A stretch of DNA of 64,000 nucleotides from Prosthecodimorpha staleyi (lineage in GTDB: Bacteria; Pseudomonadota; Alphaproteobacteria; Rhizobiales; Ancalomicrobiaceae): the NCBI RefSeq assembly GCF_018729455.1, contig NZ_JAHHZF010000004.1:340781-404780 (forward strand). Direction: 5' to 3'. Made by a program: the position numbers and the translations under genes. The notes beneath the pieces are model-generated. The model saw only the letters and a program-made list of their open reading frames with translations, did not search any database and was not told the origin of the DNA. Every line of letters begins with the position of its first letter. Position 1 is the first letter of the stretch. Below, in pieces: positions 15,745-32,843 of the stretch.

Positions 15745-16713
15745 TCAGCCGGTCCGCTCGGCCTTGGATCGCGAGATAAGGTGGAACAGGCTGCTGCTCG
15801 CCACCACGCCGGCGCCGACGAGCGTCCAGAAGCTCGGCATCGCACCCCAGACGATCCAGGTAATCGCCGTCGACCAGATCAGACCCGAATAGGCGAAAGG
15901 CGCCAGGTCCGACGCTTGCGCCGAGCGATAGGCGAGGGTTGCAAAGCCGATCCCGAAGCTGGACGAGAGCGCGGCACCGACGAACAGGGCGATGTCCCCG
16001 GGCTGCACCGCCACCCCATGACCGATCGCCAGCGGTGCGATGAAGACCGCCGAGAAGGCCGCACCGTAGAAGCTGATGGTCCAGATCGTATCGTCGGGCT
16101 TGAGCCAGCGGGCCGACAACGAAATCGACGCATAGAGGAAGGCACAGGCCAGGATCAGGAGCGAGGCCGGCTGAAAGGCGGCGGAGCCTGGGCGCATCGC
16201 GATCATCACGCCGGTGAAGCCGACCAGAACGGCGATCCATTTCGGCCAACCGACCGCCTCCCGGAAGACGGTCGCGGATGCCACCGTGATGATGAAGGGC
16301 GAGGCGAACAGGATGACGGTCGCCTCGGCGACGCTCAGATACTTCAGTCCGTGAATGTAGAGATAGGCGGCCAGCAGATTGATGGCCCCGCGCAGGGCAT
16401 AGAGCGGCGCATGCGCCGACCAGCGGATCCGATCCCGGCCGATCGCGAATGCCATGAACGCGAGCAGCGGCATCGCCAGGATGCTGCGCACGAGGATGAT
16501 CACCGGCACCTCGTAACGGTCGATCAGGAACTTGGTCATCGTGTCGTTGAGCGTGAAGCACAGCGAGCCGAAGCACATCATGGCGATGGCGCGGATCACC
16601 CCGGGTGAGGCGGTCATCGGGCCGCGTCCGGCGGCGGACAGGGCGTCCGGGGATCGGCGAAGCCGGGCTCGGAAGACGGGCGGCAGTGCGGGCGCGGGCA
16701 CGGGTTCGGGCAT
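15745..16713 (-). CDS. EamA/DMT-family transporter
   Basis: Inner-membrane protein of the drug/metabolite transporter superfamily with about ten helices in two EamA repeats. Family-typical segments are visible (MMCFGSLCFTLNDTMTKFL, LNYIHG-like AYLYIHGLKYLSVAEATVILF, VGFTGVMIAMRPG). Up to 322 residues. The first 32 residues from ATG 16713 are Pro/Arg-rich and unlike the family, and the internal ATG at 16617 (MTASPGV) would give a normal 290-residue protein, so that start may be the true one; neither has a good ribosome site. Probably an exporter of a small metabolite. It stands alone between two operons. Confidence 0.8.
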   Translation of the reverse strand: MPEPVPAPALPPVFRARLRRSPDALSAAGRGPMTASPGVIRAIAMMCFGSLCFTLNDTMTKFLIDRYEVPVIILVRSILAMPLLAFMAFAIGRDRIRWSAHAPLYALRGAINLLAAYLYIHGLKYLSVAEATVILFASPFIITVASATVFREAVGWPKWIAVLVGFTGVMIAMRPGSAAFQPASLLILACAFLYASISLSARWLKPDDTIWTISFYGAAFSAVFIAPLAIGHGVAVQPGDIALFVGAALSSSFGIGFATLAYRSAQASDLAPFAYSGLIWSTAITWIVWGAMPSFWTLVGAGVVASSSLFHLISRSKAERTG

Positions 16714-16782: not shown

Positions 16783-16833
16783 GTTGGACGCTCGTCCAAC
16801 GTTTTGGAATGCTATCTTTATATAAGTTGGACG
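16783..16833. promoter_or_regulatory. operator-like repeat GTTGGACG / CGTCCAAC / GTTGGACG
   Basis: A perfect inverted repeat GTTGGACG-CT-CGTCCAAC (16783-16800) is followed 25 bases later by a third copy of the half-site, GTTGGACG (16826-16833). The region between and after them is AT-rich and promoter-like. It lies upstream of the nitronate monooxygenase gene at 16916 and the transporter operon that follows. The BetI-like TetR regulator of this gene group (24997) is the most obvious candidate to bind; that link is inference. Confidence 0.55.
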
Positions 16834-16915
16834 GCCAGCATATTTTCTGTTTACAGGACCGGCATCCCGGCACTAACCTCTTTCCATAGGCGGATCGGAC
16901 GAGGCCGAGGACGGC

Positions 16916-17890
16916 ATGAAGACGCGGGTCACCGAACTCCTGGGCATCCGATACCCGATCATCCAGGGCGGCATGCAGTGGGTCGGCCGCGCCGAACTCG
17001 CCGCCGCCGTCTCCAATGCCGGCGGCCTCGGCATCCTGACCGCGCTGACGCAGCCCGATCCGGAGGCGCTGCGGGCAGAGATCGCCCGCTGCCGGCAGAT
17101 GACCGACGCACCTTTCGGCGTGAACCTGACCATCCTGCCGTCGACCCAGCCGCCACCCTACGAGGCCTATCTGGATGCCGCGCTGGACTCCGGCGTCCGC
17201 ATCATCGAGACGGCGGGACGCAGCCCGAAGGAATTCATCGCCAAGGCCAAGGCGGCCGGCGCGGTCATCGTCCACAAATGCACGGCGGTCCGGCATGCCC
17301 TGTCGGCGGAACGGGCCGGCGTCGACGCGATCTCGATCGACGGCTTCGAGGCGGCCGGCCATCCCGGCGAGGACGATGTCGGCGGCCTCGTGCTGTTCCC
17401 GGCCGCCGCCCGGGCCGTCAAGGTGCCGCTGATCGCCTCCGGCGGCATCGGCACCGGCCGGGGCATGGCGGCGGCGATGATGCTCGGTGCCGAGGGGGTC
17501 AACATGGGTACCCGCTTCTGCGCCACGCGCGAAGCCCCGATCCACGACGCCATCAAGCGCGCCCTGCTCGATGCGTCCGAATGCGACACAAAGCTGATCT
17601 TCCGGACGCTGCGCAACACCGGCCGGGTGTTGAAGAACAGGATCTCGCAGGAGGTGGTCGCACTCGAGACCCGGCCTGGCGGATGCACCTTCGCCGATCT
17701 CCAGCCGCTCGTCGCCGGCGCTCGCGGACGCGGCGCGCTTCAGTCGGGCGAGGTCGACGAGGGTCTGGTCTGGGCCAGCCAGGTCGTCGGCCTGGTCGAA
17801 GACATCCCGACCTGTGCCGAACTGATCGACCGGATGGTGCGCGAGTGCCGGGAGGCGATGCTGAACGGGCTCAGGGCCTTCGCGGCCTGA
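16916..17890 (+). CDS. nitronate monooxygenase (FMN-dependent, NMO/2-nitropropane dioxygenase family)
   Basis: FMN-binding TIM-barrel enzyme of 324 residues that oxidises alkyl nitronates such as propionate-3-nitronate; some relatives are FabK-type enoyl reductases or have unknown substrates. Visible features are IIQGGMQWVGRAELAAAVSNAGGLG at the N-terminus, the catalytic-His segment AAGHPGEDD, and the FMN phosphate loop IASGGIGTGRGMAAAMMLGAEGVNMGTRF. GAGG precedes the ATG at 16916. It sits between an operator-like repeat and a polyamine-type transporter operon, so it may take part in that pathway or detoxify a nitronate analogue. Confidence 0.85.
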   Translation: MKTRVTELLGIRYPIIQGGMQWVGRAELAAAVSNAGGLGILTALTQPDPEALRAEIARCRQMTDAPFGVNLTILPSTQPPPYEAYLDAALDSGVRIIETAGRSPKEFIAKAKAAGAVIVHKCTAVRHALSAERAGVDAISIDGFEAAGHPGEDDVGGLVLFPAAARAVKVPLIASGGIGTGRGMAAAMMLGAEGVNMGTRFCATREAPIHDAIKRALLDASECDTKLIFRTLRNTGRVLKNRISQEVVALETRPGGCTFADLQPLVAGARGRGALQSGEVDEGLVWASQVVGLVEDIPTCAELIDRMVRECREAMLNGLRAFAA

Positions 17891-18048
17891 TCCCGGCGGT
17901 CTCGACCGACGGCGGCCCGATCCGGCAACCCGGCCGGCGCGATCCGGCCGCACGACGACCGACCGGGGTTCCGGTCCAAGAAAACCGGGTGTCAATCCGG
18001 GTCAAGCAACGGATCCACACAAGTGGGTCCAGAAAACGGGAGGAAACC

Positions 18049-19077
18049 ATGGAACTTCGCTTGATTCTGGCGGCCTCGGCCTTTGCGCTGACGGTGCCGG
18101 CCATGGCCCAGGAGACGGTCAGCTACGCATCCTATGGCGGCGCCTATCAGGAGGGCGTCCGCAAGGCGATCCTCGACCGCCTGCCGGCCGAGAAGGGCAT
18201 GAAGGTCGTCGACTACGTATTGGCCGGCGGCATTCGCGACATCCGCACCAAGGTCAAGGCCAAGGCGGTCGACATCGACGTGGCCGAGCTCTACGGCGGC
18301 CTGTGTGACCAGGCGGCCAAGGAAGAGCTGATCGTCCCGCTCGACTATTCGAAGATCCCCAATGCGTCCGGCGTTCCGGAGCATCTGCGCAACAAGAACT
18401 GGGTCGGCTTCACCGCCTATACCACCGTCCTGGCCTACAACAAGGACGTCTACGGCAAGAATCCCCCGAAGAACTGGGCCGATTTCTTCGATGTCGCGAA
18501 ATTCCCGGGAACCCGGGCGATCGGCGGCACCTATCCGTCGACCAATCTGGAGATCGCCCTTTTGGCCGACGGCGTGCCGAAGGAGAAGATCTATCCGGTC
18601 GACATCGAGCGCGCGATCAAGAAGTGGACCCAGTTCAAGCCGAACATCACCATCCGCTGGGCGACCGGCGCGCAGGCGACGCAGCTCGCCACCGCCCGCG
18701 AGGTCGACATGCTGACCATCTGGGCGGCCCGCATCGACGCCGCGATCAAGGAAGGCGCGCCCTACGCCTATACGCTCAACGACGCGGTGATGGACGTCGA
18801 GTGCCTGGTGGTGCCGCGCAACTCGCCCAATCCCGAAGGCGCGATGCGGCTGATCAACCATCTGCTCGATCCGAAATACCAGGCCCGTCTGCCCGACTAC
18901 ATTCCCTACGGGCCGATGAACCAGGATGCCTTCAAGCTCGGACTGATCTCGCCTGAGAAGGCCGCCAAGGTGGTGACCAGCACCGAGAACATCGCCAAGC
19001 AGCTGATCACCGACATGCCCTACTGGGCTGCGCACATCATCGAGGCGCAGACCAAGTGGGATGCGGCGATGCAGTAG
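18049..19077 (+). CDS. spermidine/putrescine-type ABC transporter substrate-binding protein
   Basis: Periplasmic binding protein of the PotD-like (family 1/8) group, 342 residues. A signal peptide (MELRLILAASAFALTVPAMAQ) is followed by ETVSYASYGGAYQEGVRKAIL, typical of this class. GGGAGG lies five bases before the ATG at 18049. It is separated from its ATPase and permease genes by two large palindromes. This subgroup transports diverse cationic or carboxylated compounds, so 'polyamine' is only a fold-based label; linkage to acyl-CoA genes suggests an organic acid or betaine-like substrate. Confidence 0.85.
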   Translation: MELRLILAASAFALTVPAMAQETVSYASYGGAYQEGVRKAILDRLPAEKGMKVVDYVLAGGIRDIRTKVKAKAVDIDVAELYGGLCDQAAKEELIVPLDYSKIPNASGVPEHLRNKNWVGFTAYTTVLAYNKDVYGKNPPKNWADFFDVAKFPGTRAIGGTYPSTNLEIALLADGVPKEKIYPVDIERAIKKWTQFKPNITIRWATGAQATQLATAREVDMLTIWAARIDAAIKEGAPYAYTLNDAVMDVECLVVPRNSPNPEGAMRLINHLLDPKYQARLPDYIPYGPMNQDAFKLGLISPEKAAKVVTSTENIAKQLITDMPYWAAHIIEAQTKWDAAMQ

Positions 19078-19093
19078 CGCCATCCCGTAGCCT

Positions 19094-19154
19094 CCCGGCG
19101 CCCGCGGGCGCCGGGCCGGATTTCGCGATCGCCCTCCCCGCCGGCGGGGAGGGC
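19094..19154 (+). terminator. two tandem perfect palindromes after the substrate-binding-protein gene
   Basis: CCCGGCGCCCGCGGGCGCCGGG (19094-19115) is a 22-base perfect palindrome, and a 24-base perfect palindrome centred on CCCCGCCGGCGGGG follows at 19131-19154. Transcribed, both form very stable hairpins (with a few unpaired loop bases) between the binding-protein gene and the ATPase/permease genes. They probably protect the upstream mRNA and attenuate the downstream part. No T-run follows. Confidence 0.55.
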
Positions 19155-19222
19155 CTGGCCGATCATGTGCGCGGAGGGGTCCGCGCCGGCCGGTCCTGTC
19201 CTGCACGGGTTCCATTCGGGAT

Positions 19223-20326
<1,104 letters not shown>

Positions 20327-20329
20327 GCC

Positions 20330-21238
20330 ATGCAGCCGGCGTCCGCCCTCGCCCCGGTTACCGAAGCCGACCTCGCCGCCAACCAGCGCGCGCTCGACCG
20401 CGCGGCGCGCGCCGAGGACCGGCTGATGTTCCGGCTCACCGTGCCGGCGCTCGCGATCGTGGCGATCCTGATGGTCGTGCCGATCGGCTGGCTCCTGTCG
20501 ATGTCCTTCATCGGCGCCGACGGCGGGCTCGGCTTCGAGAATTACGCGCTGTTCTTCTCGGAGCCGGCCTATGTCCAGATGTTCGTCAACACCTTCGCGA
20601 TCGCCTTCGCGGTCACGGCGCTGTGCCTGATCCTCGGCTATCCGGTCGCCTACGTGCTGGCGATCCTGCCGCCGCGCTGGTCCGGCCTCCTGATGCTCGC
20701 CGTGCTGGTGCCGTTCTGGACGTCCGGGCTGGTGCGCACCTTCTCGTGGCTGATCATCCTGCAGCGCAACGGGCTGGTGAACAAGGCGCTGGTCGCCACC
20801 GGGCTGATCGAACGGCCGATCCCGCTGGTGCACAACATGACTGGCACGATCATCGGCATGGTCCACATCATGGTGCCGTTCCTGATCCTGCCGCTCTACG
20901 CCTCGATGAAGGCGATCGACGGCAACCTGATGCGCGCCGCCGCCAGCGTCGGCTCGACGCCGACCCATGCCTTCTTGCGCGTCTTCCTGCCGCTCTCGAT
21001 GCCCGGCCTGGTCGCCGGCACCATCATGGTCTTCGTGATGTGCCTCGGCTTCTACATCACCCCGGCGCTGCTCGGCGGCGGCAAGGTCAAGATGATCGCC
21101 CAGCGCATCGAGGAATCGATCTCGCTCTATCCGACCTGGGGACCCGCGGCGGCGCTCGCCGTGCTGCTCCTGGTCGTCACCGCTATCTGCCTCGCCGCCA
21201 GCATGCTGCTGGTGCGGCGGCTCAGCACCGACCGTTGA
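20330..21238 (+). CDS. ABC transporter permease (PotB type)
   Basis: Inner-membrane permease, 302 residues. Membrane segments start near residue 35 (FRLTVPALAIVAILMVVPIGWLLSMSF), and the EAA loop is seen in SMKAIDGNLMRAAASVGSTPTHAFLRVFLPLSMPG. An Ala-rich cytoplasmic N-terminus of about 30 residues precedes the first helix. Works with the next gene (PotC type) as the membrane channel of the importer whose ATPase is at 19223 and binding protein at 18049. Confidence 0.88.
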   Translation: MQPASALAPVTEADLAANQRALDRAARAEDRLMFRLTVPALAIVAILMVVPIGWLLSMSFIGADGGLGFENYALFFSEPAYVQMFVNTFAIAFAVTALCLILGYPVAYVLAILPPRWSGLLMLAVLVPFWTSGLVRTFSWLIILQRNGLVNKALVATGLIERPIPLVHNMTGTIIGMVHIMVPFLILPLYASMKAIDGNLMRAAASVGSTPTHAFLRVFLPLSMPGLVAGTIMVFVMCLGFYITPALLGGGKVKMIAQRIEESISLYPTWGPAAALAVLLLVVTAICLAASMLLVRRLSTDR

Positions 21239-21249
21239 GGGGGACGACG

Positions 21250-22056
21250 ATGGAATCCCACGTTTCCCATCGCAACCGGCTCTGGCTCTACATCTTCGTC
21301 GGCCTGGTCGTCTTCTATCTGGTCGCCCCGGCGCTGATCGTCGTGCCGGTCTCGTTCAGTTCCACGACCTCGCTGGCCTTCCCGCCGGCCGGCTGGTCGA
21401 CGCGCTGGTATGAGGCCTTCTTCGGCCAGGAGAAGTGGATCGGATCGCTCTGGGTGTCGCTGCGCGTCGCCTTCGGCACCATGATCCTCGCCACCGTCAC
21501 CGGCATCGCCGCATCCTACGCGCTGCACATGTCGGGTTTCCGGCTGCGCACCGCCATCCGGGCGACGCTGGTCTCGCCGCTGGCGGTGCCGGCGATCCTG
21601 ATCGCGGTCGGCATCTTCTTCGTCTTCGCCCGCCTCGGCGGCCTGCTCAACACCATCCATGGCCTGATCCTCGGCCATGCGGTCGTCGCCATGCCGTTCG
21701 TCATCCTGACCATGAGCGCCGGCTTCGAGAGCTTCGACATGAGCCAGGAGATGGTCGCCCGCAGCCTGGGGGCGAGCCGGTTCAAGGCCTTCATGACCGT
21801 CACCCTGCCGCAGCTCAAATTCTCGGTGGCGACCGCGATGCTGCTCGCCTTCCTGGTCTCCTTCGACGAACTGATCATCTCGCTGATGGTCTCCTCGGGG
21901 CCGGTCTCGACACTGTCGCGGGTGACCTTCGCGACGCTGCGCGACGATGTCGATCCGACGCTCGCGGCGGTCTCGACGCTGATGCTGGTGATGACCTCGG
22001 TGCCGCCGCTGATCCTGCACATCGTCACGACCCGCTCCAAGCGCGAGGACGCCTGA
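21250..22056 (+). CDS. ABC transporter permease (PotC type)
   Basis: Second permease of the first polyamine-type importer, 268 residues from ATG 21250 (MESHVSHRNRLWLY). Typical segments are FYLVAPALIVVPVSFSSTTSLAFPP, then WYEAFFG, and the EAA loop SFDMSQEMVARSLGASRFKAFMTVTLPQLK. GGGGGAC before the ATG may act as ribosome site. The enoyl-CoA hydratase gene follows one base after the stop, which ties transport to CoA-ester metabolism in a single operon. Confidence 0.88.
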   Translation: MESHVSHRNRLWLYIFVGLVVFYLVAPALIVVPVSFSSTTSLAFPPAGWSTRWYEAFFGQEKWIGSLWVSLRVAFGTMILATVTGIAASYALHMSGFRLRTAIRATLVSPLAVPAILIAVGIFFVFARLGGLLNTIHGLILGHAVVAMPFVILTMSAGFESFDMSQEMVARSLGASRFKAFMTVTLPQLKFSVATAMLLAFLVSFDELIISLMVSSGPVSTLSRVTFATLRDDVDPTLAAVSTLMLVMTSVPPLILHIVTTRSKREDA

Positions 22057-22057
22057 C

Positions 22058-22879
22058 ATGCTGGCGGATCTCAACCGGGCGCTGGCCGGCTTCGTCGAAC
22101 TGCACCGCGACGGCCCCATCCTCGAAATCCGGATGGTCAAGACGCCCGTCAACGCGATCTGCCGGCGCTTCAGCCGGGGCCTGGAGCAGGCGGCGCTTTA
22201 CCTCCAGAACGAGCCGGAACTGCGTGTCGGGCTCTTGACCAGCGGCTGCGAGAAGGCGTTCTCGGCCGGGCTCGACTTCCGGCAATCGACCGCGCCGGCC
22301 GGGGCGCCGCGCGAGCCGGGCGCGCAGGAGGGCGGCTTCGGCGGCATCACCACGCTGTGGTCGCTGAAGAAGCCGCTGATTGCGGTCATCGCGGCACCTG
22401 CGATCGGCGGCGGGCTCGAACTGGCGCTCGCCTGCGACATCATCCTGATGGCCGACGAGGCCTATCTGCGCCTGCCCGAACTGGAGCGGGGGCTCATCCC
22501 CGACGGCGGCGGATTGCAGCGACTGCCGCGGCGGATTCCGTACCATGTCGCGACCGCCATGATCTGGACCGGCGAACCGATGTCGGCGGCGGATGCGCTG
22601 CGCTGGGGTCTCGCCTACCGGACCGCGCCGCGCGACCGGATCGACGCCGTAGCCCGGGAGGTCGCCCGGCGGGTGGCCCGCGGCGCTCCGCTGGCGCAGC
22701 AGGCGCTGAAGGAAGCCCTGCGCGCCGTCGACGGCCTGCCGGATCGCCAGGCGATGGCCATGCGCGGCCTGCCGGGGGCCGACCTGACCGTTTTCGAACG
22801 CATGCTGAAGTCGGACGACATGATCGAGGGTCAGCGCGCCTTCCTGGAAAGGCGCGCGCCGCGATGGACGGGACAGTGA
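22058..22879 (+). CDS. enoyl-CoA hydratase/isomerase family protein
   Basis: Crotonase-fold enzyme of 273 residues. The oxyanion-hole segments are seen in KAFSAGLDFRQS and IAAPAIGGGLELALACDIILMADEAYLRLPELERGLIPDGGG; the Glu of ELERG is at the position used for catalysis in many hydratases. It follows the transporter permease directly, so it is cotranscribed. It is not close in sequence to the second hydratase at 22998 and lacks a long C-terminal tail, suggesting a different step (for example isomerisation, or hydration of a branched or substituted acyl-CoA). Confidence 0.85.
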   Translation: MLADLNRALAGFVELHRDGPILEIRMVKTPVNAICRRFSRGLEQAALYLQNEPELRVGLLTSGCEKAFSAGLDFRQSTAPAGAPREPGAQEGGFGGITTLWSLKKPLIAVIAAPAIGGGLELALACDIILMADEAYLRLPELERGLIPDGGGLQRLPRRIPYHVATAMIWTGEPMSAADALRWGLAYRTAPRDRIDAVAREVARRVARGAPLAQQALKEALRAVDGLPDRQAMAMRGLPGADLTVFERMLKSDDMIEGQRAFLERRAPRWTGQ

Positions 22880-22934
22880 GCCGGCACGGCCGGCTAGGGA
22901 CGGGAAACTGAGCCGGCAGGCCGGCGATCGAGGC

Positions 22935-22972
22935 GCCCCGCAGAGGGCGGCCGCCGCCCCGCAAAGGGCGGC
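22935..22972. repeat. imperfect tandem repeat between two enoyl-CoA hydratase genes
   Basis: The 17-base word GCCCCGCAGAGGGCGGC (22935-22951) recurs at 22956-22972 with one change (AGA to AAA). Each copy is itself a partial inverted repeat. It lies just upstream of the second hydratase. No function is evident; it could be a slippage product or form small hairpins. Confidence 0.5.
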
Positions 22973-22997
22973 AGCGGGAAATTTCCGGGAGGCAGGG

Positions 22998-23786
22998 ATG
23001 TACAGGTTTCTTGAGACGGAACGTCACGGCGCGGTCGGGCTGATCGCGCTCAACCGGCCGGAGGCGCGCAATGCGCTCGGCATGGGCATCACCATCGAAT
23101 TGCGCCGGGCCCTGCGCGAGGCGGCCGCCGATCGGACCATGCGGGCGCTCGTTCTGACCGGGCGCGGCGGGGCCTTCTCGGCCGGCGCGGATGTCAAGGA
23201 ATGGGCCGACAAGAGCAAGGGCGACAATCCCTGGCCGGACATGAACTGGGTCGAGGAATCGCTGCGGCTGGTCCAGCAGGTCCACGACATGCCGAAGCCG
23301 ACCATCGCGATGATCGACGGCGCGGCCGTCGGGGCCGGGCTCGACATGGCGCTCGCCTGCGACTTCCGCTACGCGTCCGAGCGCTCCAAGTTCATCTGCT
23401 CCTACACCAATGTCGGCTACAACCCCGACTGCGGCGGCACATGGCTGATGCCGCGCGTCATGGGCCTGGAGGCAGCCAAGCGCTTCGCCTTCACGGGCGA
23501 CCTCTGGACGGCGGCCGTCGCCCTGGAGAACCGCCTGGTCAGCCATGTCAGCCCGACCGACCGGCTCTTTGACGACACGCTCGCCTTCGCCCAGAGGCTC
23601 GCCGCCGGGCCGACGGTGGCCATCGCCCAGGCGAAGAAGCTCCTCAACAGCGCGCACAGCCGCAGTCTGTCCGACCAGCAGCTCGAGGAGGTCGCCGCGG
23701 GCAAGATCTGCGCCCAGACCCAGGACCATGCCGAAGGGCTGGCGGCCGCCAACGAGCGCCGCGCCCCCCGGTTCGTCGGCGCGTGA
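22998..23786 (+). CDS. enoyl-CoA hydratase/isomerase family protein
   Basis: Second crotonase-fold protein, 262 residues. FSAGADVKEW and MIDGAAVGAGLDMALACDFRYASERSKFICSYTNVGYNPDCGGTW carry the oxyanion-hole backbone. At the usual second catalytic position the sequence reads NPDCGGTW, where hydratases commonly have an acidic residue, so the chemistry may differ from plain hydration. GGGAGG precedes the ATG at 22998. It is followed by an acyl-CoA dehydrogenase in the same operon. Confidence 0.85.
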   Translation: MYRFLETERHGAVGLIALNRPEARNALGMGITIELRRALREAAADRTMRALVLTGRGGAFSAGADVKEWADKSKGDNPWPDMNWVEESLRLVQQVHDMPKPTIAMIDGAAVGAGLDMALACDFRYASERSKFICSYTNVGYNPDCGGTWLMPRVMGLEAAKRFAFTGDLWTAAVALENRLVSHVSPTDRLFDDTLAFAQRLAAGPTVAIAQAKKLLNSAHSRSLSDQQLEEVAAGKICAQTQDHAEGLAAANERRAPRFVGA

Positions 23787-23796
23787 GGAGACGGAC

Positions 23797-24957
23797 ATGG
23801 ATTTCGCATTGGATTTCGAGCAGCAGGCGCTGGTGAACTCGCTGGAGGAATTCTGCCGGCGGGAGCTCTACCCGCACGAGGCGGTGGTCGAGGAGCTCCG
23901 CTACGTCCCCGACGAGATCCGGCAGGAGATCCGCCGCAAGTCGAAGGAGGCCGGCTTCGACGGCATGAACCTGCCGGAACAGTGGGGCGGCCCGGGCCTC
24001 GACAAGCAGACCAAGATGCAGGCCGAACGGGTCATGGGCAAACCGTCCACAGCGCTCGGCCAGTGCATGAATCGCGGCGTCACCGGCATCCTGTTCAAGT
24101 GCCGGGACGAGCAGATCGAGGAGTATCTGCTGCCGTCGATCCGAGGCGAGCGCAAGAACGCCTTCGCGCTGACCGAACCGGGCGCCGGATCGGATGCGCG
24201 CGCGATCGTCACCCGGGCCGAACGTCAGGGCGGCGAATGGGTGATCAACGGCGTCAAGCAGTTCATCTCGGCGGCCGACATCGCGGATTTCATCATCCTG
24301 ATCGCCGTCTCCGGCACCGATCAGACGCCGAAGGGGCCGCGCAAGCGCTTTACGGCCTTCCTGGTCGACAAGACCTCGCCGGGCCTGCGCGTCGAGCCGA
24401 TGAAGTCGATCGTCACCCACGGCTACAACCCGACCATGGTCTATTTCGACAATGTGCGCGTGCCCGACAGCAAGATTCTCGGCGGCGAGGGCGAGGGCTT
24501 CAACACCGCCAACGAGTGGCTGTATGACGGGCGCGTCGCCCTATCGGCGCATTGCGTCGGGCGGGCCGAACGCATCTTCGAGATGACCAAGGAATGGGCC
24601 GGCACCCGCAAGGCTTTCGGGCGGACGATCGGCGAGTTCCAGGGCATCGGCTTCAAGATCGCCAACATGGCGATCGACATCAAGCTGGGCGACCTCATGG
24701 TCAAGGAGGCCGCCTGGAAGATGGAAAACGACCAGATGAACCGGACCGAGGCGTCGATGGTCAACTACTACTGTTCCGAGATGGTCTTCCGGGTCGCCGA
24801 CAACGCGGTCCAGATCTTCGGCGGCATGGGGATGATGGAGGATTTCCCGATCCAGCGCTTCTGGCGCGATGCGCGCATCGAGCGGATCTGGGAGGGAACA
24901 TCCGAAATCCACCAGGACGTCATCGCCAAGGACCTGCTGCGGCCCTATCGGAACTGA
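23797..24957 (+). CDS. acyl-CoA dehydrogenase
   Basis: FAD enzyme of 386 residues that introduces an alpha,beta double bond into an acyl-CoA. N-terminal helical domain MDFALDFEQQALVNSLEEF; signature FALTEPGAGSDARAIVTRA in the middle domain; C-terminal RKAFGRTIGEFQGIGFKIANMAID, QIFGGMGMMEDFPIQRFWRD and the active-site region RIERIWEGTSEIHQDVI. In many family members the catalytic base is the Glu of the WEGTSEI segment. GAGGAG precedes ATG 23797. Overall closest in feel to short-chain, CaiA-like or isovaleryl-type dehydrogenases; the acyl group is unknown. Confidence 0.88.
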   Translation: MDFALDFEQQALVNSLEEFCRRELYPHEAVVEELRYVPDEIRQEIRRKSKEAGFDGMNLPEQWGGPGLDKQTKMQAERVMGKPSTALGQCMNRGVTGILFKCRDEQIEEYLLPSIRGERKNAFALTEPGAGSDARAIVTRAERQGGEWVINGVKQFISAADIADFIILIAVSGTDQTPKGPRKRFTAFLVDKTSPGLRVEPMKSIVTHGYNPTMVYFDNVRVPDSKILGGEGEGFNTANEWLYDGRVALSAHCVGRAERIFEMTKEWAGTRKAFGRTIGEFQGIGFKIANMAIDIKLGDLMVKEAAWKMENDQMNRTEASMVNYYCSEMVFRVADNAVQIFGGMGMMEDFPIQRFWRDARIERIWEGTSEIHQDVIAKDLLRPYRN

Positions 24958-24996
24958 CGACCGCAGAACCATCGGCCGGCGGCCGGAAGGAACAAG

Positions 24997-25668
24997 ATGA
25001 AACGGGCGACGAAGCACCGCCAGGCCGGCGAGACGCGACGGACCGAACTGATCGTTGCGACCCTCAAGTCGCTCCGCAAGCACGGCTACCTGAACTCGAC
25101 GATCAACACGATCGCCGACGAGTCCGGGTTGTCACGCGGGCTGATCAATCACTATTTCGACAATAAAGACGACCTTCTGATCGTCGCCCACAAATACTAT
25201 CTGCAGAATGTCGACGATTTCTTTCGTCATGTCGTGATCTCGACCAAGAGCGGGCACTTCGGCAAGTTGCTGCACTCCGTCTTCGTGCCGTTCCTGCGCG
25301 ACACCGGCTATCAGAGGATGCTGATCCACTACATGAGCGCGGCCTTCATCCTGCCGCAGGTGCTCGACATGCACCGGGCGATCTGGGGCCGCTACCGCGC
25401 CAACATCCAGCGGCGCATCGCCGCCGCGGCGCGCGAGCGCGGACTGGAAATGGACACCCGCCTCGCCGCCATCACGCTGACCCAGCTCGCCGACGGACTG
25501 TGGCTCGGCTGGGTGATGGAGGAGAGCTACACGCAGGAGGACTGCCGGCGGATCCTGCGCCAGTGGCTGTGCGACCAATTCCGCGAAGACCCCGAGAAAT
25601 ACCCGCTCACACCCGATTTCGACCTCGTCAACTTCGAGACCGACGCCCCGCTTCCCGATCCGGAGTGA
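24997..25668 (+). CDS. TetR/AcrR family regulator, BetI-like
   Basis: DNA-binding repressor of 223 residues. The N-terminal helix-turn-helix spans about residues 15-60 (RRTELIVATLKSLRKHGYLNSTINTIADESGLSRGLINHYFDNKDDLL), which resembles BetI. The C-terminal ligand domain contains the LADGLWLGW segment typical of the BetI-type C-terminal family. It sits in the middle of the acyl-CoA gene group, between the dehydrogenase and the CoA ligase, so it is the probable local repressor, perhaps sensing a CoA ester or a betaine-like substrate. Confidence 0.85.
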   Translation: MKRATKHRQAGETRRTELIVATLKSLRKHGYLNSTINTIADESGLSRGLINHYFDNKDDLLIVAHKYYLQNVDDFFRHVVISTKSGHFGKLLHSVFVPFLRDTGYQRMLIHYMSAAFILPQVLDMHRAIWGRYRANIQRRIAAAARERGLEMDTRLAAITLTQLADGLWLGWVMEESYTQEDCRRILRQWLCDQFREDPEKYPLTPDFDLVNFETDAPLPDPE

Positions 25669-25724
25669 TGCGGAGGCCGTCACCGAAGGCACCGCGGCAA
25701 GCGGTCGGACGCCTGGAGAGACAC

Positions 25725-27884
25725 ATGCACGATTTCCCCCTGGATGTGGCGGGCGCGCGGATGCGACCGACCCTCCGTCGCAACTTCCGGCGCCTGCTGG
25801 CGCCGCAGCGCATGGCCTTCATCGGCGGCACCCAGGTCGAGCGCACGCTGACCACGCTGCGCGACCGTCAGTTCGCCGGCGAGGTTCACGTCGTTCATCC
25901 CAAGCGGACGGAGATCGCGGGCTATCGCTGCGTGCCGCGGATCGCCGACATCCCGAACCCGCCCGACGCGGTCTTTCTGGCCGTCAACGCGGATGCCACC
26001 ATCCGGGCGCTCGACGAACTGCGCCGGATCGATGCCGGCGGCGTCGTCTGCTACGCCTCGGGTTTCGCCGAGATCGGCGAGGCCGGCGCCGAGCGCAACC
26101 GGGCCTTCATCCAGGCCTCCGGCGACATGGCCGTGGTCGGGCCGAACTGCTACGGCCTGGTTAACTACGTCAACCACGGCAGCATCTGGCCATCGCCCTT
26201 CCCGGTCCTGGAAACGGGACGCGGCGCCGCCGTCATCTCGCAGAGCGGCAACGTCACCGGACACATCGTCTCGAACGGCCGCAGCGTGCCCTATTCCTAT
26301 CTGATCAGTGCCGGCAACCAGGCGGTGCTCGGCTTCGAGGACTATATCGACGGCCTCGTCGACGACCCCAACGTGACCTGTCTCGGGCTGTTCATGGAGG
26401 GCATCAGGGACATCCCCGCCTTTGCCCGGGCCTGCCTGCTGGCCCGCTCGAAGGCCATCCCGGTCATCGTCTGCCGTTCCGGCCGCTCGGACCTGGGCGC
26501 CGCCATGGCGGCCAGCCATACCAGCTCGCTCGCCGGCCGTAACGATTTCTACGAGGCGCTGTTCGCGCGGCTCGGTGTGATCGAGACCGACACGGTGCCG
26601 CAATTCCTGGAAATGATGAAGATCGCCTCGCTGTCGGCCCCGCTCGGCGGCACGCGCTTGACGGTCTCGTCGAGTTCGGGCGGCGACAACGGGCTGGCGG
26701 CGGATTACTGTTCCTTTGCCGGCTTGCATTTGCCGCCGCCGACGGAGGCCGAGGTCGCCGCGATCGAGCCGCTGCTGCCGGAATTCGGCCATGTCTCCAA
26801 CCCGTTCGACTTCACCGCCGGCAATTGGGGCAACGAGAAGCTGCTGACCCCGATGCTGACCACACTTCTGTCTGGCGATGTCGATGCCGGCATGCTGGTG
26901 GTCGACTACGCACCGGCGGGCTCGCCCTATCGGAGCAGCCCCGCGCATGAGGCGATGGATCGCGCGCTGGCCGCGGCCGGAAAGGCGACTGGCAAGCCGG
27001 TCTACCATGCCTCGGTCAATACCGGCGGGATCACGCCGGAGGCCAGCCAGCGGATGATCGCCCAAGGCATCGTGCCGCTGCAGGGCCTGCACGATGCCGC
27101 GCAGGTGATCGCCCGATGGGCCGCCCATGGCGAGCGGATGCGCCGGGACGCCGCCGAGGGCGCCGCCGCGCTCGACCGTCTGGTGCCCCATGCGGTGCCG
27201 GCGCTCACCGGTGCGCCGCGGACCGTCAACGAGGCGGACTCCAAGCGCCGCCTCGCCGCCCACGGTCTCCCGGTCCCCGACGGCCGCGTCCTGTCGCGCG
27301 CCGAGCTTGCCGAACTGCCGGAAGAGGCGGTCGCCGCGCCGATGGCGCTCAAGGCCCTGCATGACGACCTGCCGCATAAGACGGAGGCCGGCGGCGTCGC
27401 GCTCAACCTGCGCGGCCGGGCCGAAATCCTGGCCGCGGCCGACAGGATGAGCGACAGCGTCGCCCGCCACGCACCCGCGATCCGGCTCGAACGGTTTCTC
27501 CTGGAGCCGATGCAGGCGCCGCCGCTCGCCGAACTGATCGTCGGCGTCAAGCGCGACCCGCTGTTCGGCATGGTGCTGGTCATCGGTGCCGGCGGCATCC
27601 TGGTCGAACTGATCAAGGATGCCGTCCCGCTGCTGCTGCCGGTCGGACGGGAGGATGTCGAGAAGGCCTTACGGGGCCTCAAGTGCTTCCCCCTGCTCGA
27701 CGGGTTCCGCGGCCGGCCGGCCGCCGACCTTACGGCGGTCGTCGACGCCGTCATGGCCATCGCGGCCTATGCCGGCGCAAATCTCGACAGTCTGGTCGAA
27801 CTGGACGTGAACCCGCTGATGGTCGGGCCGTCCGGCGCCGTGGCGGTCGACGCGCTGATCGTCGAAGTGCCGAGGCCGGACTGA
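25725..27884 (+). CDS. acetate--CoA ligase (ADP-forming) family acyl-CoA synthetase
   Basis: Single-chain NDP-forming acyl-CoA synthetase of 719 residues. Domains in order: CoA-binding Rossmann domain (about residues 20-140; AFIGGTQVERTLTTL, VVGPNCYGLVNY), succinyl-CoA ligase-like flavodoxin domains (140-480, with the GAAMAASHTSSLAGRNDF segment carrying the expected phosphorylated His), and a C-terminal ATP-grasp domain (about 500-719; AAPMALKALHDDLPHKTEAGGVAL). Start ATG 25725 follows GGAGAG. It would activate an organic acid to its CoA ester, the entry step for the dehydrogenase and hydratases upstream. The acid is unknown. Confidence 0.85.
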   Translation: MHDFPLDVAGARMRPTLRRNFRRLLAPQRMAFIGGTQVERTLTTLRDRQFAGEVHVVHPKRTEIAGYRCVPRIADIPNPPDAVFLAVNADATIRALDELRRIDAGGVVCYASGFAEIGEAGAERNRAFIQASGDMAVVGPNCYGLVNYVNHGSIWPSPFPVLETGRGAAVISQSGNVTGHIVSNGRSVPYSYLISAGNQAVLGFEDYIDGLVDDPNVTCLGLFMEGIRDIPAFARACLLARSKAIPVIVCRSGRSDLGAAMAASHTSSLAGRNDFYEALFARLGVIETDTVPQFLEMMKIASLSAPLGGTRLTVSSSSGGDNGLAADYCSFAGLHLPPPTEAEVAAIEPLLPEFGHVSNPFDFTAGNWGNEKLLTPMLTTLLSGDVDAGMLVVDYAPAGSPYRSSPAHEAMDRALAAAGKATGKPVYHASVNTGGITPEASQRMIAQGIVPLQGLHDAAQVIARWAAHGERMRRDAAEGAAALDRLVPHAVPALTGAPRTVNEADSKRRLAAHGLPVPDGRVLSRAELAELPEEAVAAPMALKALHDDLPHKTEAGGVALNLRGRAEILAAADRMSDSVARHAPAIRLERFLLEPMQAPPLAELIVGVKRDPLFGMVLVIGAGGILVELIKDAVPLLLPVGREDVEKALRGLKCFPLLDGFRGRPAADLTAVVDAVMAIAAYAGANLDSLVELDVNPLMVGPSGAVAVDALIVEVPRPD

Positions 27885-27983
27885 GCCGATGCTGCGGATG
27901 CCGTCGGCGGAGCGCCGCAGCCGGGCGTAGGCCGCAGGGCCGTCGGAGCCATCACGGCAGGAACCAAGCGAGGAGACAAGGCC

Positions 27984-29579
27984 ATGGCACAGGACCAGAC
28001 CGGTCAGCCGCAAACCGGGGCCGAAGCGCTCGTCCACACCCTGATCGCAGGTGGGGTCGACACCTGCTTCGCCAATCCCGGTACCAGCGAGATGCATTTC
28101 GTCGCCGCGCTGGATCGCATCCCGGGCATCCGCTGCGTGCTCGGCCTGCAGGAGAATGTCGTGACCGGGATGGCCGACGGCTATTTCCGGGTGACAGGCC
28201 GGCCCGCCGCGACGCTACTGCATTGCGGCCCGGGCTATGCGAACGGCATCGCCAACCTGCACAACGCGCGCCGGGCCGGCAGTGGCATCGTCAACATCGT
28301 CGGCGACCATGCGGTGGCGCATGTCGCCCACGACAGCCCGTTGACGGCGGATGTCGACGCGCTGGTCGGCGCGACCGCCGAATGGCACGCCTTCTCGACC
28401 GCGCCCGAGCGGATCGGCATCGACGCGGCCCGGGCGATCGAGGCGGCCGGCGACGGCTACGGCCAGGTCGCCGCGCTGGTGCTGCCGGCCGACATTTCCT
28501 GGAGCGCCGGCGGCGTCTCCGCCCGCCCAGCAGTACCGCGGCCGCCGCGCGTGCCTGATCCCGCCATGATCGGCCGAACCGCGCGCGCCCTGCGTTCGGG
28601 GCGCCGGGCGGTGATCATCCTCGGCACGCCGGCGGTGGCGGCCGACCTGCATCCGCTCCTCGCCGGGCTGGCGGCGGCGACCGGCGCGACGCTGATGGGC
28701 AGTTCGACCATCGCCCGCCAGCCGCGCGGCCGCGGCCGTCTGGTCCTGCCGGCGGTGCCCTACCCGGTCGACGACGCGATCGCGCGGCTCGACCCGTTCG
28801 ATGTGGTCGTGCTGGTCAACTGTCCGCCGCCGATCGGCTTCTTCCTCTATCCCGGCCGGCGCAGCCTGCTGCATCGGCCCGATGCCGACGTACTCGTGCT
28901 GTCGCGCGCGGACCAGGATGCGGCGGCGGCGCTTCATGCGCTGGCGTCCGAACTCGGCGTCGCGCCCTTGCCGGTGCCGGCGCCGCCCGCCGCGCCCGTC
29001 CCGGAACTGTCCGGCCCGATCACCCCGGCGGGCTTCGCCGCGGTGGTTGCCGAGGCCCTGCCGGCCGAGGCGATCGTGGTCAACGAGGCGATCACGCTGG
29101 GCGGCGGCTTCGCGGCGGTCATGCCCCATGCCGCGCCCTGCGATTGGCTGACGGTGACCGGCGGCGCGATCGGCGGCGGCCTGCCCCTGGCGACCGGTGC
29201 GGCGATCGGCGCGCGTGCGGATGGACGGTCCGACCGCCGGGTCGTGACCCTGCAGGCGGACGGCTCGGCCGCCTATACGATCCAGGCACTCTGGACGCAG
29301 GCGCGCGAAAGCCTGCCGGTGACCACCCTGCTCCTGAACAACCGCGCCTATGCGATCCTGCTCGGCGAATATGCCAAGGTGGGCGCAGAACCCGGCCCGA
29401 CCGCACGCGACATGATGAGCCTCGACCGGCCGGCGATCGACTGGTCGGCCATCGCCCGCGGCTTCGGCGTCGCCGCCGAGGCGGTGGCGACGCTGGAAGA
29501 TCTCGCGGCGGCGCTGAAACGCGCTCTCTCCCACCCCGGGCCGATGCTTGTGGACGTCCGGTTTCCGCAGGAGGGATGA
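27984..29579 (+). CDS. thiamine diphosphate-dependent enzyme, acetolactate synthase/benzoylformate decarboxylase-like
   Basis: ThDP enzyme of 531 residues in the POX/decarboxylase superfamily. N-terminal Pyr domain with the catalytic Glu in VLGLQENVVTGMADGY; central domain about residues 190-330; C-terminal PP domain with the ThDP/metal motif LQADGSAAYTIQALWTQARESLPVTTLLLNN. GAGGAG precedes ATG 27984. Relatives include acetolactate synthase-like proteins, benzoylformate decarboxylase and oxalyl-CoA decarboxylase. Because an ADP-forming CoA ligase is directly upstream, it may decarboxylate or cleave a 2-oxo acid or 2-hydroxyacyl-CoA in the same route; this is inference. It converges on the DapA-family gene 12 bases away. 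Confidence 0.8.
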   Translation: MAQDQTGQPQTGAEALVHTLIAGGVDTCFANPGTSEMHFVAALDRIPGIRCVLGLQENVVTGMADGYFRVTGRPAATLLHCGPGYANGIANLHNARRAGSGIVNIVGDHAVAHVAHDSPLTADVDALVGATAEWHAFSTAPERIGIDAARAIEAAGDGYGQVAALVLPADISWSAGGVSARPAVPRPPRVPDPAMIGRTARALRSGRRAVIILGTPAVAADLHPLLAGLAAATGATLMGSSTIARQPRGRGRLVLPAVPYPVDDAIARLDPFDVVVLVNCPPPIGFFLYPGRRSLLHRPDADVLVLSRADQDAAAALHALASELGVAPLPVPAPPAAPVPELSGPITPAGFAAVVAEALPAEAIVVNEAITLGGGFAAVMPHAAPCDWLTVTGGAIGGGLPLATGAAIGARADGRSDRRVVTLQADGSAAYTIQALWTQARESLPVTTLLLNNRAYAILLGEYAKVGAEPGPTARDMMSLDRPAIDWSAIARGFGVAAEAVATLEDLAAALKRALSHPGPMLVDVRFPQEG

Positions 29580-29591
29580 GAAACGGCCCGG

Positions 29592-30503
29592 CTATGCCCC
29601 GGCGCCGATCAGCGTTCCGTCCGCGACGAGCGCATCGATCGCCGCGGCCAACCGGTGTTCCGCAGCCTGCGACAGGTCCGTGACCGGCGGCAGGGACGCG
29701 CCGATCGGCAGCCCGATCATCGCGAAGGCGCGGCGGACGCCTTCGGGAAACTGCTCGGCGAACAGGGCGTCCATCAGTGGATGCAGCTTGCGCTGCAGGG
29801 CCAGCGCCTCCGGCACGCGACCGGCCTCGACGAGACGCAAGATCTCCGCCCAACGGCCCGGTACCAACGCGGCGGATGTCAGGACGCCGCCCTTCGCGCC
29901 CAGCATGGCCTGTTCGACGAACAGCGTGTCCTGGCCGGACAGGAGGCAGAAGCGATCGCTGACCCGGTCGGCGACCTGGGCGAAATGGTAGAGGTCGGTG
30001 TTCGACGCCTTCATGCCGACGATCAGGCCTTCCGCCTCCATCCTGGCGATCGTGTCGGGTGCGGTCACCAGATGGGTGCGGAACGGATTGTCGTAGTAGA
30101 GCACGGGCAGCTTCAGTTCCGGCGCCAGGGCGCGGAAATAGCGCAGCACGCCCTCCTGGTCGGGGCGGGCGTAGTAGGGCGCGATCACCATCAGGCCGTC
30201 CGCCCCGGCCTCGCGGCAGAGGCGCGCAGTGTCGACGGCGCCGCCAAGACCGGGGTCGAGCACGCCGCCGATGATCGGCACGCGGCCGGCCGCGGCCGAG
30301 ACGGTGATCTCCATGATGCGCCGCCGCGTGGCGAGATCGAAGGAGGTCGCCTCGCCGGTGCCGCCGAGCGGGACGAGGCCCGAGACGCCCCGGGCGATCT
30401 GGAATTCGACGATGCGGCCGAGACCATCCTCGTCGAGCGAACCGTCGGCCGCGAGCGGCGTCGGAAAGGCCGGAATGAGGCCGCGAAACATCAGTTCTGC
30501 CAT
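29592..30503 (-). CDS. dihydrodipicolinate synthase (DapA/NAL) family lyase or dehydratase
   Basis: Class I aldolase-fold enzyme of 303 residues. PLGGTGEATSF is the substrate-carboxylate loop; the Schiff-base Lys lies in GMKASN and the proton-relay Tyr in YYDNPFRTH (where DapA has YNxPGRT). Biosynthetic DapA is usually about 290 residues, and the changed loop suggests a catabolic relative (for example a KDG-type aldolase or pyrroline-hydroxycarboxylate deaminase). Start chosen at ATG 30503, with GTGAGG six bases upstream; a GTG at 30515 overlapping the aldehyde dehydrogenase stop is also possible. It lies downstream of the aldehyde dehydrogenase and is probably cotranscribed with it. Confidence 0.82.
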   Translation of the reverse strand: MAELMFRGLIPAFPTPLAADGSLDEDGLGRIVEFQIARGVSGLVPLGGTGEATSFDLATRRRIMEITVSAAAGRVPIIGGVLDPGLGGAVDTARLCREAGADGLMVIAPYYARPDQEGVLRYFRALAPELKLPVLYYDNPFRTHLVTAPDTIARMEAEGLIVGMKASNTDLYHFAQVADRVSDRFCLLSGQDTLFVEQAMLGAKGGVLTSAALVPGRWAEILRLVEAGRVPEALALQRKLHPLMDALFAEQFPEGVRRAFAMIGLPIGASLPPVTDLSQAAEHRLAAAIDALVADGTLIGAGA

Positions 30504-30511
30504 GGGCGGCC

Positions 30512-31999: not shown

Positions 32000-32075
32000 G
32001 TGGACGGTTCCCGGAAAGGATGGCCGAAGCCGGACGCGGAATATGATAGGCTGTTCGCCAGAGGGGCACCACTCG

Positions 32076-32098
32076 AATTTTTGGATTTCTGAAAAATG
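32076..32098. promoter_or_regulatory. AT-rich inverted repeat upstream of the XRE-cupin gene
   Basis: ATTTTT (32078-32083) and AAAAAT (32093-32098) form perfect arms around GGATTTCTG, within an AT-rich island between the divergent aldehyde dehydrogenase and regulator genes. The word GAATTTT is shared with the palindrome found just after the regulator gene (32826-32843). Likely operator of the regulator and promoter element for both directions. Confidence 0.45.
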
Positions 32099-32196
32099 AA
32101 TTGGCAGTCCGGCGCCGCAACGCTATCCTCCCCGACTGTGCAAGCTGGCCCGACGGGGCGGCTTCGTGGCCGGACGACTTCGGATTTACCAACCTC

Positions 32197-32826: not shown

Positions 32827-32843
32827 TTTCAGAATTTTGAAAT
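32826..32843. promoter_or_regulatory. 18-base palindrome upstream of the second polyamine-type transporter
   Basis: ATTTCAGAATTTTGAAAT is palindromic except at one central base pair and overlaps the stop codon of the XRE-cupin gene. It lies about 160 bases upstream of the transporter operon that starts at 33001. Together with the related AT-rich repeat before the regulator gene it makes a pair of candidate operators bracketing the regulator. Confidence 0.5.

Follow-up and report, generated by a model that had tools for sequence, protein, structure and literature searches.

A co-inherited gene island of Prosthecodimorpha staleyi with a possible role in the catabolism of omega-cationic carboxylates

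Results

The island as an inherited unit

The subject of this work is an island of eleven plus-strand genes at positions 16916–29579 of a 64-kb piece (the window, contig NZ_JAHHZF010000004.1) of the 6.19-Mb genome of the alphaproteobacterium Prosthecodimorpha staleyi, situated 3′ of a palindrome at 16783–16800. In order, the genes code for a flavoprotein of the nitronate monooxygenase (NMO) family, a binding protein, an ATPase and two permeases of an ATP-binding cassette (ABC) importer, two crotonases (ECH1 and ECH2), an acyl-CoA dehydrogenase, a TetR regulator, an ADP-forming acyl-CoA ligase and a thiamine diphosphate (ThDP) enzyme (Table 1). These genes are one co-inherited unit, scattered among alphaproteobacteria. 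Our tentative reading of its function is that the island handles a small omega-cationic carboxylate (4-guanidinobutyrate-, butyrobetaine- or 5-aminovalerate-like) together with a 2-oxo-acid precursor, by a route on which the cationic head group is lost. An earlier reading of the letters made without database searches (the sequence-only reading) had listed the same gene set, and all the genes it named are present on the plus strand.

Relatives were fetched from a genome contig collection with the ligase as the only query, and a single-protein query of this kind reaches close relatives only. It returned ten loci with ligase identities of 60–95%, carried by Prosthecomicrobium, Tianweitania, Defluviimonas, Paracoccus (two), Cypionkella, Metarhizobium, Rhizobium, Aestuariivirga and a Hyphomicrobiales bacterium; the 95% belongs to Prosthecomicrobium hirschii (locus L042). 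The genes of the binding protein, ATPase, both permeases, ECH1, ECH2, dehydrogenase and TetR precede the ligase in constant order in all ten. The ThDP gene follows the ligase in seven and is divergent, adjoining the binding-protein gene, in three. The NMO gene is present in seven (8/11 with the window included), lies downstream in L048, and was not found in L049–L051 when the ten loci were searched. The sequence-only reading had allowed for these genes being separately inherited; co-conservation in ten of ten loci is the opposite outcome, and its proposal that the genes form a coherent catabolic module, covering import, activation to the CoA ester, desaturation and hydration, is supported. The permease gene of L046 (4615–5521) and the ATPase gene of L047 (3528–4612) are each split across two frames, by either a frameshift or a sequencing error.

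Quick maximum-likelihood searches, whose support values are not bootstraps and which gave long-branch warnings for the crotonases, placed the island copies in a single clade in each of the four trees built (support 100 for the ligase, 99 for the dehydrogenase, 100 for ECH1 and 99 for ECH2). L051 branches off first, and the window groups with L042 and L045 with L046, in all four; L048–L050 stand together in three trees and are not resolved in that of ECH2. The next neighbour of the window and L042 varies, being L044 for the ligase and ECH1 versus L043 for the dehydrogenase (support 80), and the four gene trees are concordant in their main groups only. Chance clustering is ruled out by the ten loci and this concordance.

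The module is rare in genome samples. At E ≤ 1e-100, with at most two candidates scored per genome, the ligase matched 36 of 385 alphaproteobacterial genomes, exceeding 49% identity in the P. staleyi genome only; at the same threshold two of the three genomes of the genus matched, the second being 95% identical, as did two of the 12 other genomes of the family, at 39–40% identity. An ECH2 profile search (E ≤ 1e-70) retrieved three of the 385 genomes and a single-sequence search (E ≤ 1e-56) four of 398 across the phylum, the source genome being counted in both. In a plasmid collection there was no ECH2 match at E ≤ 1e-50, and the 131 records matching the ligase were all below 60% identity. Because the distribution of the module is patchy, horizontal transfer is suggested. 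The edges of the island are sharp, and its composition gives no island signal (GC content 68.5% in the module, 69.3% in the left flank and 68.6% in the right). Flanking genes, sought with crude gene calls, are mostly not common among the relatives, the exception being an EamA-family transporter gene found in five of the ten loci, in one of them truncated by the locus end; the arrangement to the right of 29592 is common only to the near-identical locus L042.

Regulator and importer

The palindrome GTTGGACG-CT-CGTCCAAC is perfect and begins at the position from which the sequence-only reading had counted the module; a second half-site, TTGGACG, lies at 16827–16833. It has no mismatch and is the sole match in the window when up to three are allowed (0.31 expected; 27 of 100 shuffles gave one or more), which by itself is a weak statistic for a palindrome first noticed by eye. 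The relatives are more telling: in ten of ten, the best or tied-best match to TTGGACGnnCGTCCAA within 22 kb falls in the gap 5′ of the first module gene, with one to three mismatches (in L049 it is tied with a site elsewhere), against a mean of 0.44 and a maximum of 6 out of ten for 200 control motifs of the same composition. We infer that the TetR protein binds this putative operator, and the island is probably TetR-regulated. The regulator itself scores below both NCBIfam BetI cut-offs (70.3 versus 118 and 69.9 versus 201.3 bits), so that its description as "BetI-like" was too strong a basis for a choline or betaine substrate, and BetI is ruled out as evidence on the substrate.

A similar correction applies to the importer, which had been called PotABCD-like and of cation type. 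The importer is there and its ATPase belongs to the PotA subfamily, but the binding protein fails the PotD model (54 bits, cut-off 582), so the label went too far and PotD is rejected as substrate evidence. The best solved relatives of the binding protein are 4i1d (242 bits) and MotA (176 bits). It scores 134 bits against the gamma-aminobutyrate (GABA) sensor 6dgv, 135.5 against 4eq7 and 126.5 against an agropine protein, versus 87.5 (8jv1) and 44 (1pot) for spermidine/putrescine binders; 4eq7 is labelled as a polyamine protein, and we take it to be a GABA binder. Arg228 and Glu251, at the places of Arg203 and Asp226 of 4eq7, which presumably hold the carboxylate and the amine, are identical in all 11 module copies, and their retention supports an omega-cationic acid as the substrate class. 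A polyamine label is easily given to such proteins in error: measurements on three P. aeruginosa binding proteins that had been predicted to take spermidine or putrescine reportedly showed binding of GABA and/or 5-aminovalerate, and the gene of one of the three lies next to the aru regulators (PMC11113362).

Relation to butyrobetaine and carnitine clusters

The ligase, the dehydrogenase and ECH1 are 36–48% identical to enzymes of gamma-butyrobetaine/carnitine clusters, and the ligases at 37–43% identity have a dehydrogenase, and usually also a CaiD-like crotonase, in their clusters. Thirteen loci, assigned to this group by their neighbours, look like gamma-butyrobetaine/carnitine clusters: nine have BKACE, two more have a carnitine dehydrogenase/HADH match, and L084 and L087 have neither. 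The likeness is well seen in Rhizobium johnstonii pRL10 (L054), where a homologous ligase (37%), dehydrogenase (47%) and CaiD-like crotonase (36%) form one cluster, and in L052 and L053 a Pot-type ABC importer is present too. Homologues of this set of ligase, acyl-CoA dehydrogenase and CaiD-type hydratase occur in all 11 module copies. A betaine-like or amino-acid-derived substrate, as the sequence-only reading had suggested, comes out from these relatives as the most likely class.

The simplest use of this kinship would be a route for gamma-butyrobetaine or another trimethylammonium acid, in which ligase, dehydrogenase and ECH1 would yield a carnitine-type 3-hydroxy-CoA with the head group retained, while ECH2 and the ThDP enzyme would serve later or side steps. 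In its favour, ECH1 has crotonobetainyl-CoA hydratase as its best model (at 202.9 bits with a cut-off of 500, hence not a member) and groups in the tree with crotonases of butyrobetaine clusters, and the ligase and dehydrogenase have relatives there as well. The known carnitine route, as described, includes BKACE and carnitine dehydrogenase (PMC12482172). Within 10 kb at most on either side of the ligase match, and in the whole of the window, however, BKACE, carnitine dehydrogenase and HADH gave no match above 60 bits in any of the 11 module stretches, as against BKACE in 9 of 13 butyrobetaine loci (11 of 13 with carnitine dehydrogenase/HADH); the source genome has two BKACE genes elsewhere, only 34% and 26% identical to that of R. 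johnstonii. The island genes themselves include no hydroxyacyl-CoA dehydrogenase, thiolase or BKACE (thiolase was not sought in the flanks). The module ligases (support 100) and dehydrogenases (support 99) form their own clade outside the butyrobetaine clade. Butyrobetaine clusters carry BKACE, a carnitine-type dehydrogenase and, in most cases, a regulator of the GlxA type; in their stead the island has ECH2, a ThDP enzyme, the NMO-family protein and TetR, and the butyrobetaine route leaves ECH2 and the ThDP enzyme unexplained. We therefore consider this route unlikely; a trimethylammonium substrate, the example that had been offered earlier, is possible, but we do not prefer it to a guanidino acid or another omega-amino acid.

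A further cluster of this general make-up, comprising a dehydrogenase, a ligase, a Pot-type importer and a crotonase, was seen elsewhere in the P. staleyi genome (contig C2, locus L082, 6506–18362). Its ligase is 31%, its dehydrogenase 36–38% and its transporter parts 32–49% alike to those of the island, and an XRE/cupin-like regulator and an FAD oxidoreductase were read by eye.

Relation to the arginine (aru) operon and the place of the ThDP enzyme

The ECH2 search also led to three Pseudomonas-type genomes of one genus (L094–L096), with the order aldehyde dehydrogenase (ALDH), aminotransferase, relative of 5-guanidino-2-oxopentanoate decarboxylase, ligase, dehydrogenase and ECH2; in L094 the translations show a permease and a two-component system beyond these. 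We take this order to match PA4976–PA4983 of P. aeruginosa. The ligase, dehydrogenase and ECH2 are 44–45%, 46–47% and 43–44% identical to those of the island. Among these comparison loci the NCBIfam model NF005712 (AruI) was run on L094 and L085 only: the ThDP enzyme of L094 reaches 779.3 bits (cut-off 500), and those of L095 and L096 were assigned by 45% identity to the L085 enzyme. The alphaproteobacterial locus L085 (G352:C126, 1805–16157) combines ECH2, two dehydrogenases, a short-chain dehydrogenase/reductase (SDR), a ligase and a CaiD-like crotonase. About 5 kb away a further NF005712 enzyme (608.2 bits) is encoded, and an enzyme of the agmatinase family and a protein resembling dimethylargininase are encoded in between, which marks a guanidino-compound region. 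For PA4978, PA4979 and PA4980, described as acyl-CoA synthetase, acyl-CoA dehydrogenase and enoyl-CoA hydratase/isomerase, the cited source draws a connection with a fatty-acid signal rather than with arginine (PMC4412052).

The resemblance of the island to the Pseudomonas aru operon consists in the joint occurrence of a ThDP decarboxylase, an ADP-forming ligase, a dehydrogenase and ECH2. The differences are that the ThDP enzyme of the operon is of the AruI family, whereas that of the island belongs to NF005760; that the operon's dehydrogenase is nearer to the butyrobetaine type (57–58%); that no ECH1 or NMO was found there; and that the operon has its own ALDH, aminotransferase, amino-acid permease and two-component system. 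In numbers, the island's ThDP enzyme scores 624.6 bits on NF005760 (cut-off 363), a model with the name "acetolactate synthase large subunit", and 103.8 bits on NF005712, below the cut-off of 500; the two further copies scored on NF005760, those of L048 and L051, reach 648.4 and 718.7 bits. Orthology with AruI is ruled out at 29% identity over 181 residues, and the AruI relatives listed in the source genome are 28–32% identical to the island's enzyme.

Relatives of the NF005760 enzyme were found in 78 plasmid records, of which five loci, at 50–54% identity, were opened. An ALDH gene adjoins in three of them (L055, L056 and L059), in two of these together with an aminotransferase gene. A relative of 5-guanidino-2-oxopentanoate decarboxylase stands beside the ligase–dehydrogenase–ECH2 trio in all three Pseudomonas-type loci and about 5 kb away in L085. 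The trio is thus accompanied by two different ThDP families, of which one is that of a named 2-oxo-acid decarboxylase, and on the simplest reading both make the aldehyde from which the acid of the ligase is formed. Since this context recurs in three lineages (the ALDH neighbours, and the NF005712 enzymes near the same trio), the ThDP enzyme quite probably acts upstream, as a 2-oxo-acid decarboxylase. The sequence-only reading had placed it at the final cleavage; gene context does not support this, and the reading as a terminal lyase is rejected on that ground.

The nearest solved ThDP proteins are benzoylformate decarboxylases, and an aromatic or branched 2-oxo acid might accordingly be decarboxylated in the benzoylformate manner, activated and passed through partial beta-oxidation; ECH2, moreover, resembles PaaG of phenylacetate breakdown, though below its cut-off (165.1 bits versus 345.15). 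The best benzoylformate decarboxylase match, however, is only 131.6 bits. The cofactor Glu and one catalytic His are conserved in 11 of 11 module copies, and the segment of the second His is unaligned (residue roles as we presume them to be). There is no ring-cleaving or ring-hydroxylating enzyme among the eleven genes, the binding protein is nearer to GABA and opine binders, and the ligase clade adjoins the butyrobetaine and aru ligases. An aromatic or branched substrate appears improbable on this evidence.

We likewise give little chance to the idea that two or more unrelated routes are held together only by a common regulator. The mobility of two genes would suit it, as the NMO gene is absent from three of the ten relatives and relocated in one, and the ThDP gene is divergent in three. 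The transporter, the crotonases, the dehydrogenase, TetR, the ligase and the ThDP enzyme are, however, present in all ten, the trees agree in their main groups, and a ThDP enzyme of a different family accompanies the same three enzymes in two other lineages.

The ligase and DddX

The third-best solved relative of the ligase is DddX (7cm9, 205.5 bits), a dimethylsulfoniopropionate (DMSP) lyase of the same superfamily, and its phosphorylated His292 is conserved in the alignment. Glu432 and Phe435 of DddX, described as the cleavage base and a cation-binding residue (PMC8163506), align with Ser and Ala in the island ligase. A lyase route of the DddX type for DMSP or beta-alanine betaine, in which the ligase itself would make and cleave the CoA ester, is extremely improbable despite the shared phospho-His, as both residues are replaced and the dehydrogenase, the isomerase-type crotonase and the ThDP enzyme would have no place in it; the identity of the ligase as a DMSP lyase is rejected on the replacements.

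The cation-binding Trp391 of DddX aligns with Thr, and a Trp-Gly four residues on could match it with a gap. A Trp occurs in this segment in all 35 aligned ligases, and the 4-hydroxybutyrate ligase 8wzu has NPVDIVG there. In L061–L064, whose ligases are 43–44% identical, none of the island's other proteins was found in the 20 kb searched per locus.

Crotonases, dehydrogenase and flavoprotein

The two crotonases are, as had been noted before, different enzymes. ECH1 retains both hydratase Glu residues in the ten module copies aligned, window included (L046 was not aligned). ECH2 has Asp116 and the Asp of a PD[CA]G motif and neither hydratase Glu in 16 of 16 aligned sequences (11 module copies, L060, L085 and three aru loci), an arrangement which is that of PaaG and the dienoyl isomerases; the catalytic roles are those that we presume for these residues. 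In the dehydrogenase and ECH2 trees L060 and then L085 stand next to the module, and L060 is next in the ligase tree. An SDR whose best model is 2,4-dienoyl-CoA reductase (196–248 bits, cut-off 318) is encoded between TetR and the ligase in L051, the deepest module copy, and beside the ECH2 clusters of L060 and L085.

The first gene had been read as a nitronate monooxygenase, which is too strong a label: among solved NMO and FabK proteins its product is closest to PA1024 (412.3 bits, versus 205.5 for the nearest FabK). The flavoprotein shares its broad family with the FabK enoyl reductases and could replace the SDR or act as a quinone reductase. PA1024 is characterized as an NADH:quinone oxidoreductase, and its genomic surroundings are said to point to fatty acid catabolism (PMC10033279); NADH:quinone activity is predicted here from similarity.

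Features of the island and its neighbours

The coordinates are collected in Table 1. The PuuC-like ALDH gene beyond the island occurs at this position among the relatives only in L042 and is a candidate for the aldehyde oxidation that the island lacks.

Table 1. Positions of the island genes, the putative operator and two neighbouring genes in the window.
Feature	Position	Strand	Basis or remark
Palindromic putative operator, GTTGGACG-CT-CGTCCAAC	16783–16800		presumed TetR site
NMO-family flavoprotein, closest to PA1024 NADH:quinone reductase	16916–17890	+	NMO family, 206.6 bits
Periplasmic binding protein, nearer GABA/opine binders than PotD	18049–19077	+	comparison with solved proteins
ABC transporter ATPase, PotA subfamily	19223–20326	+	TIGR01187, 387 bits (cut-off 355.6)
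ABC permease A	20330–21238	+	family match
ABC permease B	~21250–22056	+	start codon uncertain; first in-frame ATG after 21235
Crotonase ECH1, CaiD-like hydratase type	22058–22879	+	both catalytic Glu conserved
Crotonase ECH2, PaaG-like isomerase type	22998–23786	+	Asp116 and Asp144, without catalytic Glu
FAD acyl-CoA dehydrogenase	23797–24957	+	family match, tree; queries began at 23791 or 23794 (one or two additional residues)
TetR-family regulator, BetI-type C-terminal domain, not BetI itself	24997–25668	+	family match
Single-chain ADP-forming acyl-CoA synthetase (ligase)	25725–27884	+	domains CoA_binding_2, Succ_CoA_lig, ATP-grasp_5
ThDP enzyme, NF005760 family, benzoylformate-decarboxylase-like; presumed 2-oxo-acid decarboxylase	27984–29579	+	model match
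EamA-family transporter, divergent neighbour, accessory	15745–16713	-	relative at same position in 5/10 loci
PuuC-like ALDH, beyond a DapA-family gene	30512–31999	-	PuuC 633.9 bits (cut-off 850), not a member

The group at 29592–36882 is a separate neighbour. Its minus strand carries the DapA-family and PuuC-like ALDH genes, its plus strand those of a PuuR-like regulator (63.4 bits versus a cut-off of 211) and of a second Pot-type ABC system; the arrangement recurs only in L042 among the ten relatives. An FMN-dependent protein resembling L-lactate dehydrogenase (310.8 bits versus a cut-off of 376) is encoded at 38412–39584.

Discussion

The island likely belongs to the butyrobetaine/arginine kind of omega-cationic acid catabolism. 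That its substrate is an omega-cationic acid is, on sequence relationships, probable, because the ligase, the dehydrogenase and ECH1 are related to butyrobetaine clusters and the ligase and ECH2 to the aru operon. The arginine-type context favours a guanidino head group, and the SDR favours a chain of five carbons or more.

We infer the reactions of the route from the genes as follows. In the presence of a pathway compound TetR would leave its operator at 16783, and the importer would take in a zwitterion with a carboxylate and a cationic group. From the matching 2-oxo acid the ThDP enzyme would form an aldehyde by decarboxylation; an ALDH from outside the island would oxidise this to the acid, and the ADP-forming ligase would convert the acid to its CoA thioester. 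The acyl-CoA dehydrogenase would then desaturate the ester; in the version that we favour the omega head group would depart at this point, as from butyrobetainyl-CoA with BbuA, leaving plain enoyl- or dienoyl-CoAs for which the isomerase ECH2, the hydratase ECH1 and a 2,4-dienoyl-CoA reductase would be the helpers. ECH2 would shift the remaining double bond from delta-3 to delta-2, chains of at least five carbons would call on the dienoyl-CoA reductase encoded in the deepest copy of the module and in two relatives outside it, and ECH1 would form an ordinary 3-hydroxyacyl-CoA to be completed by core beta-oxidation, which would explain eleven genes without a hydroxyacyl-CoA dehydrogenase, thiolase or BKACE. 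The PA1024-like flavoprotein would pass electrons from NADH to quinones.

The loss of the head group before hydration is a doubtful, if possible, element of this scheme. It is suggested by the lack of BKACE, carnitine dehydrogenase and HADH in the 11 module stretches, by the isomerase type of ECH2 and the hydratase type of ECH1, by the company of SDR and ECH2 in L051, L060 and L085, and by the precedent of BbuA. If the head group were retained, dedicated enzymes would be needed after hydration, as in the carnitine clusters, and there are none among the eleven genes. BbuA, a protein of the acyl-CoA dehydrogenase fold, is described as removing trimethylamine from butyrobetainyl-CoA to give crotonyl-CoA (PMC8364193). 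Its resemblance to the island dehydrogenase, drawn by description only, would lie in such a fold acting on an omega-cationic CoA ester; the Emergencia timonensis bbu cluster differs in using CoA transferases instead of a ligase, in being anaerobic, and in having no crotonase or ThDP enzyme among the six genes named. 5-Hydroxyvaleryl-CoA dehydratase works by a flavin mechanism. This dehydratase is cited for 5-aminovalerate fermenters (PMC8473912).

Several observations weigh against the proposed route. The dehydrogenase has an ordinary WEGTSEI segment, whose Glu we take to be catalytic, and plain desaturation suffices to account for it. The SDR occurs in one of the 11 module copies only, with no match in the ten others, and a strict replacement of SDR by the NMO-family protein is disfavoured because L049 and L050 have neither. 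The likeness of the ThDP enzyme to benzoylformate decarboxylases could mean an aromatic substrate, its distance from AruI is large, and two of the five opened NF005760 neighbourhoods (L057 and L058) have no ALDH or aminotransferase partner next door. No AruH-like aminotransferase match was obtained in the 11 module stretches, and an ALDH match in three only (the window, L042 and, about 4 kb away, L050). L060, the nearest outside relative, showed no ThDP gene in 15 kb, its contig ending 1.2 kb beyond ECH2. The Trp of the ligase is also present in the more distant ligases of L082 and L086, and so does not single out cationic substrates, and the L085 ligase branches with L061–L064, not with the module. 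Finally, a comparison of the island's binding protein with the one encoded near the aru genes of L094–L096 gave no match at E ≤ 1e-6.

No account of the island was found among the papers listed in a survey of arginine transaminase, PA4978–PA4980 and aruI, guanidinobutyryl-CoA, carnitine/butyrobetaine and DddX, in which the exact gene set was not searched by name and the original aru study (Yang and Lu 2007) was outside the scope, so that a role proposed in that study may have escaped notice; the guanidinobutyryl-CoA sources, in the portions consulted, deal mostly with polyketides built from that starter.

In practical terms, scattered generic annotations are replaced by a single defined island for which a likely regulator site, a transporter and a short, testable list of substrates can be named, and the comparison suggests a reason for the presence of genes of the PA4978–PA4980 type within the arginine transaminase operon. 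A bolder generalization, which we regard as quite unlikely, is that the island and the aru ligase–dehydrogenase–isomerase trio represent an aerobic head-group-first route, with CoA activation of the acid, flavin-dependent loss of the whole omega-guanidino or quaternary-ammonium group and then isomerisation to an ordinary enoyl-CoA. If this were true, free guanidine or a methylamine would be released, and arginine-type catabolism would have a second branch beside guanidinobutyrase and, with it, a biological source of free guanidine. Loss of the head group at the level of the CoA ester would make such a route an aerobic counterpart of the anaerobic BbuA reaction.

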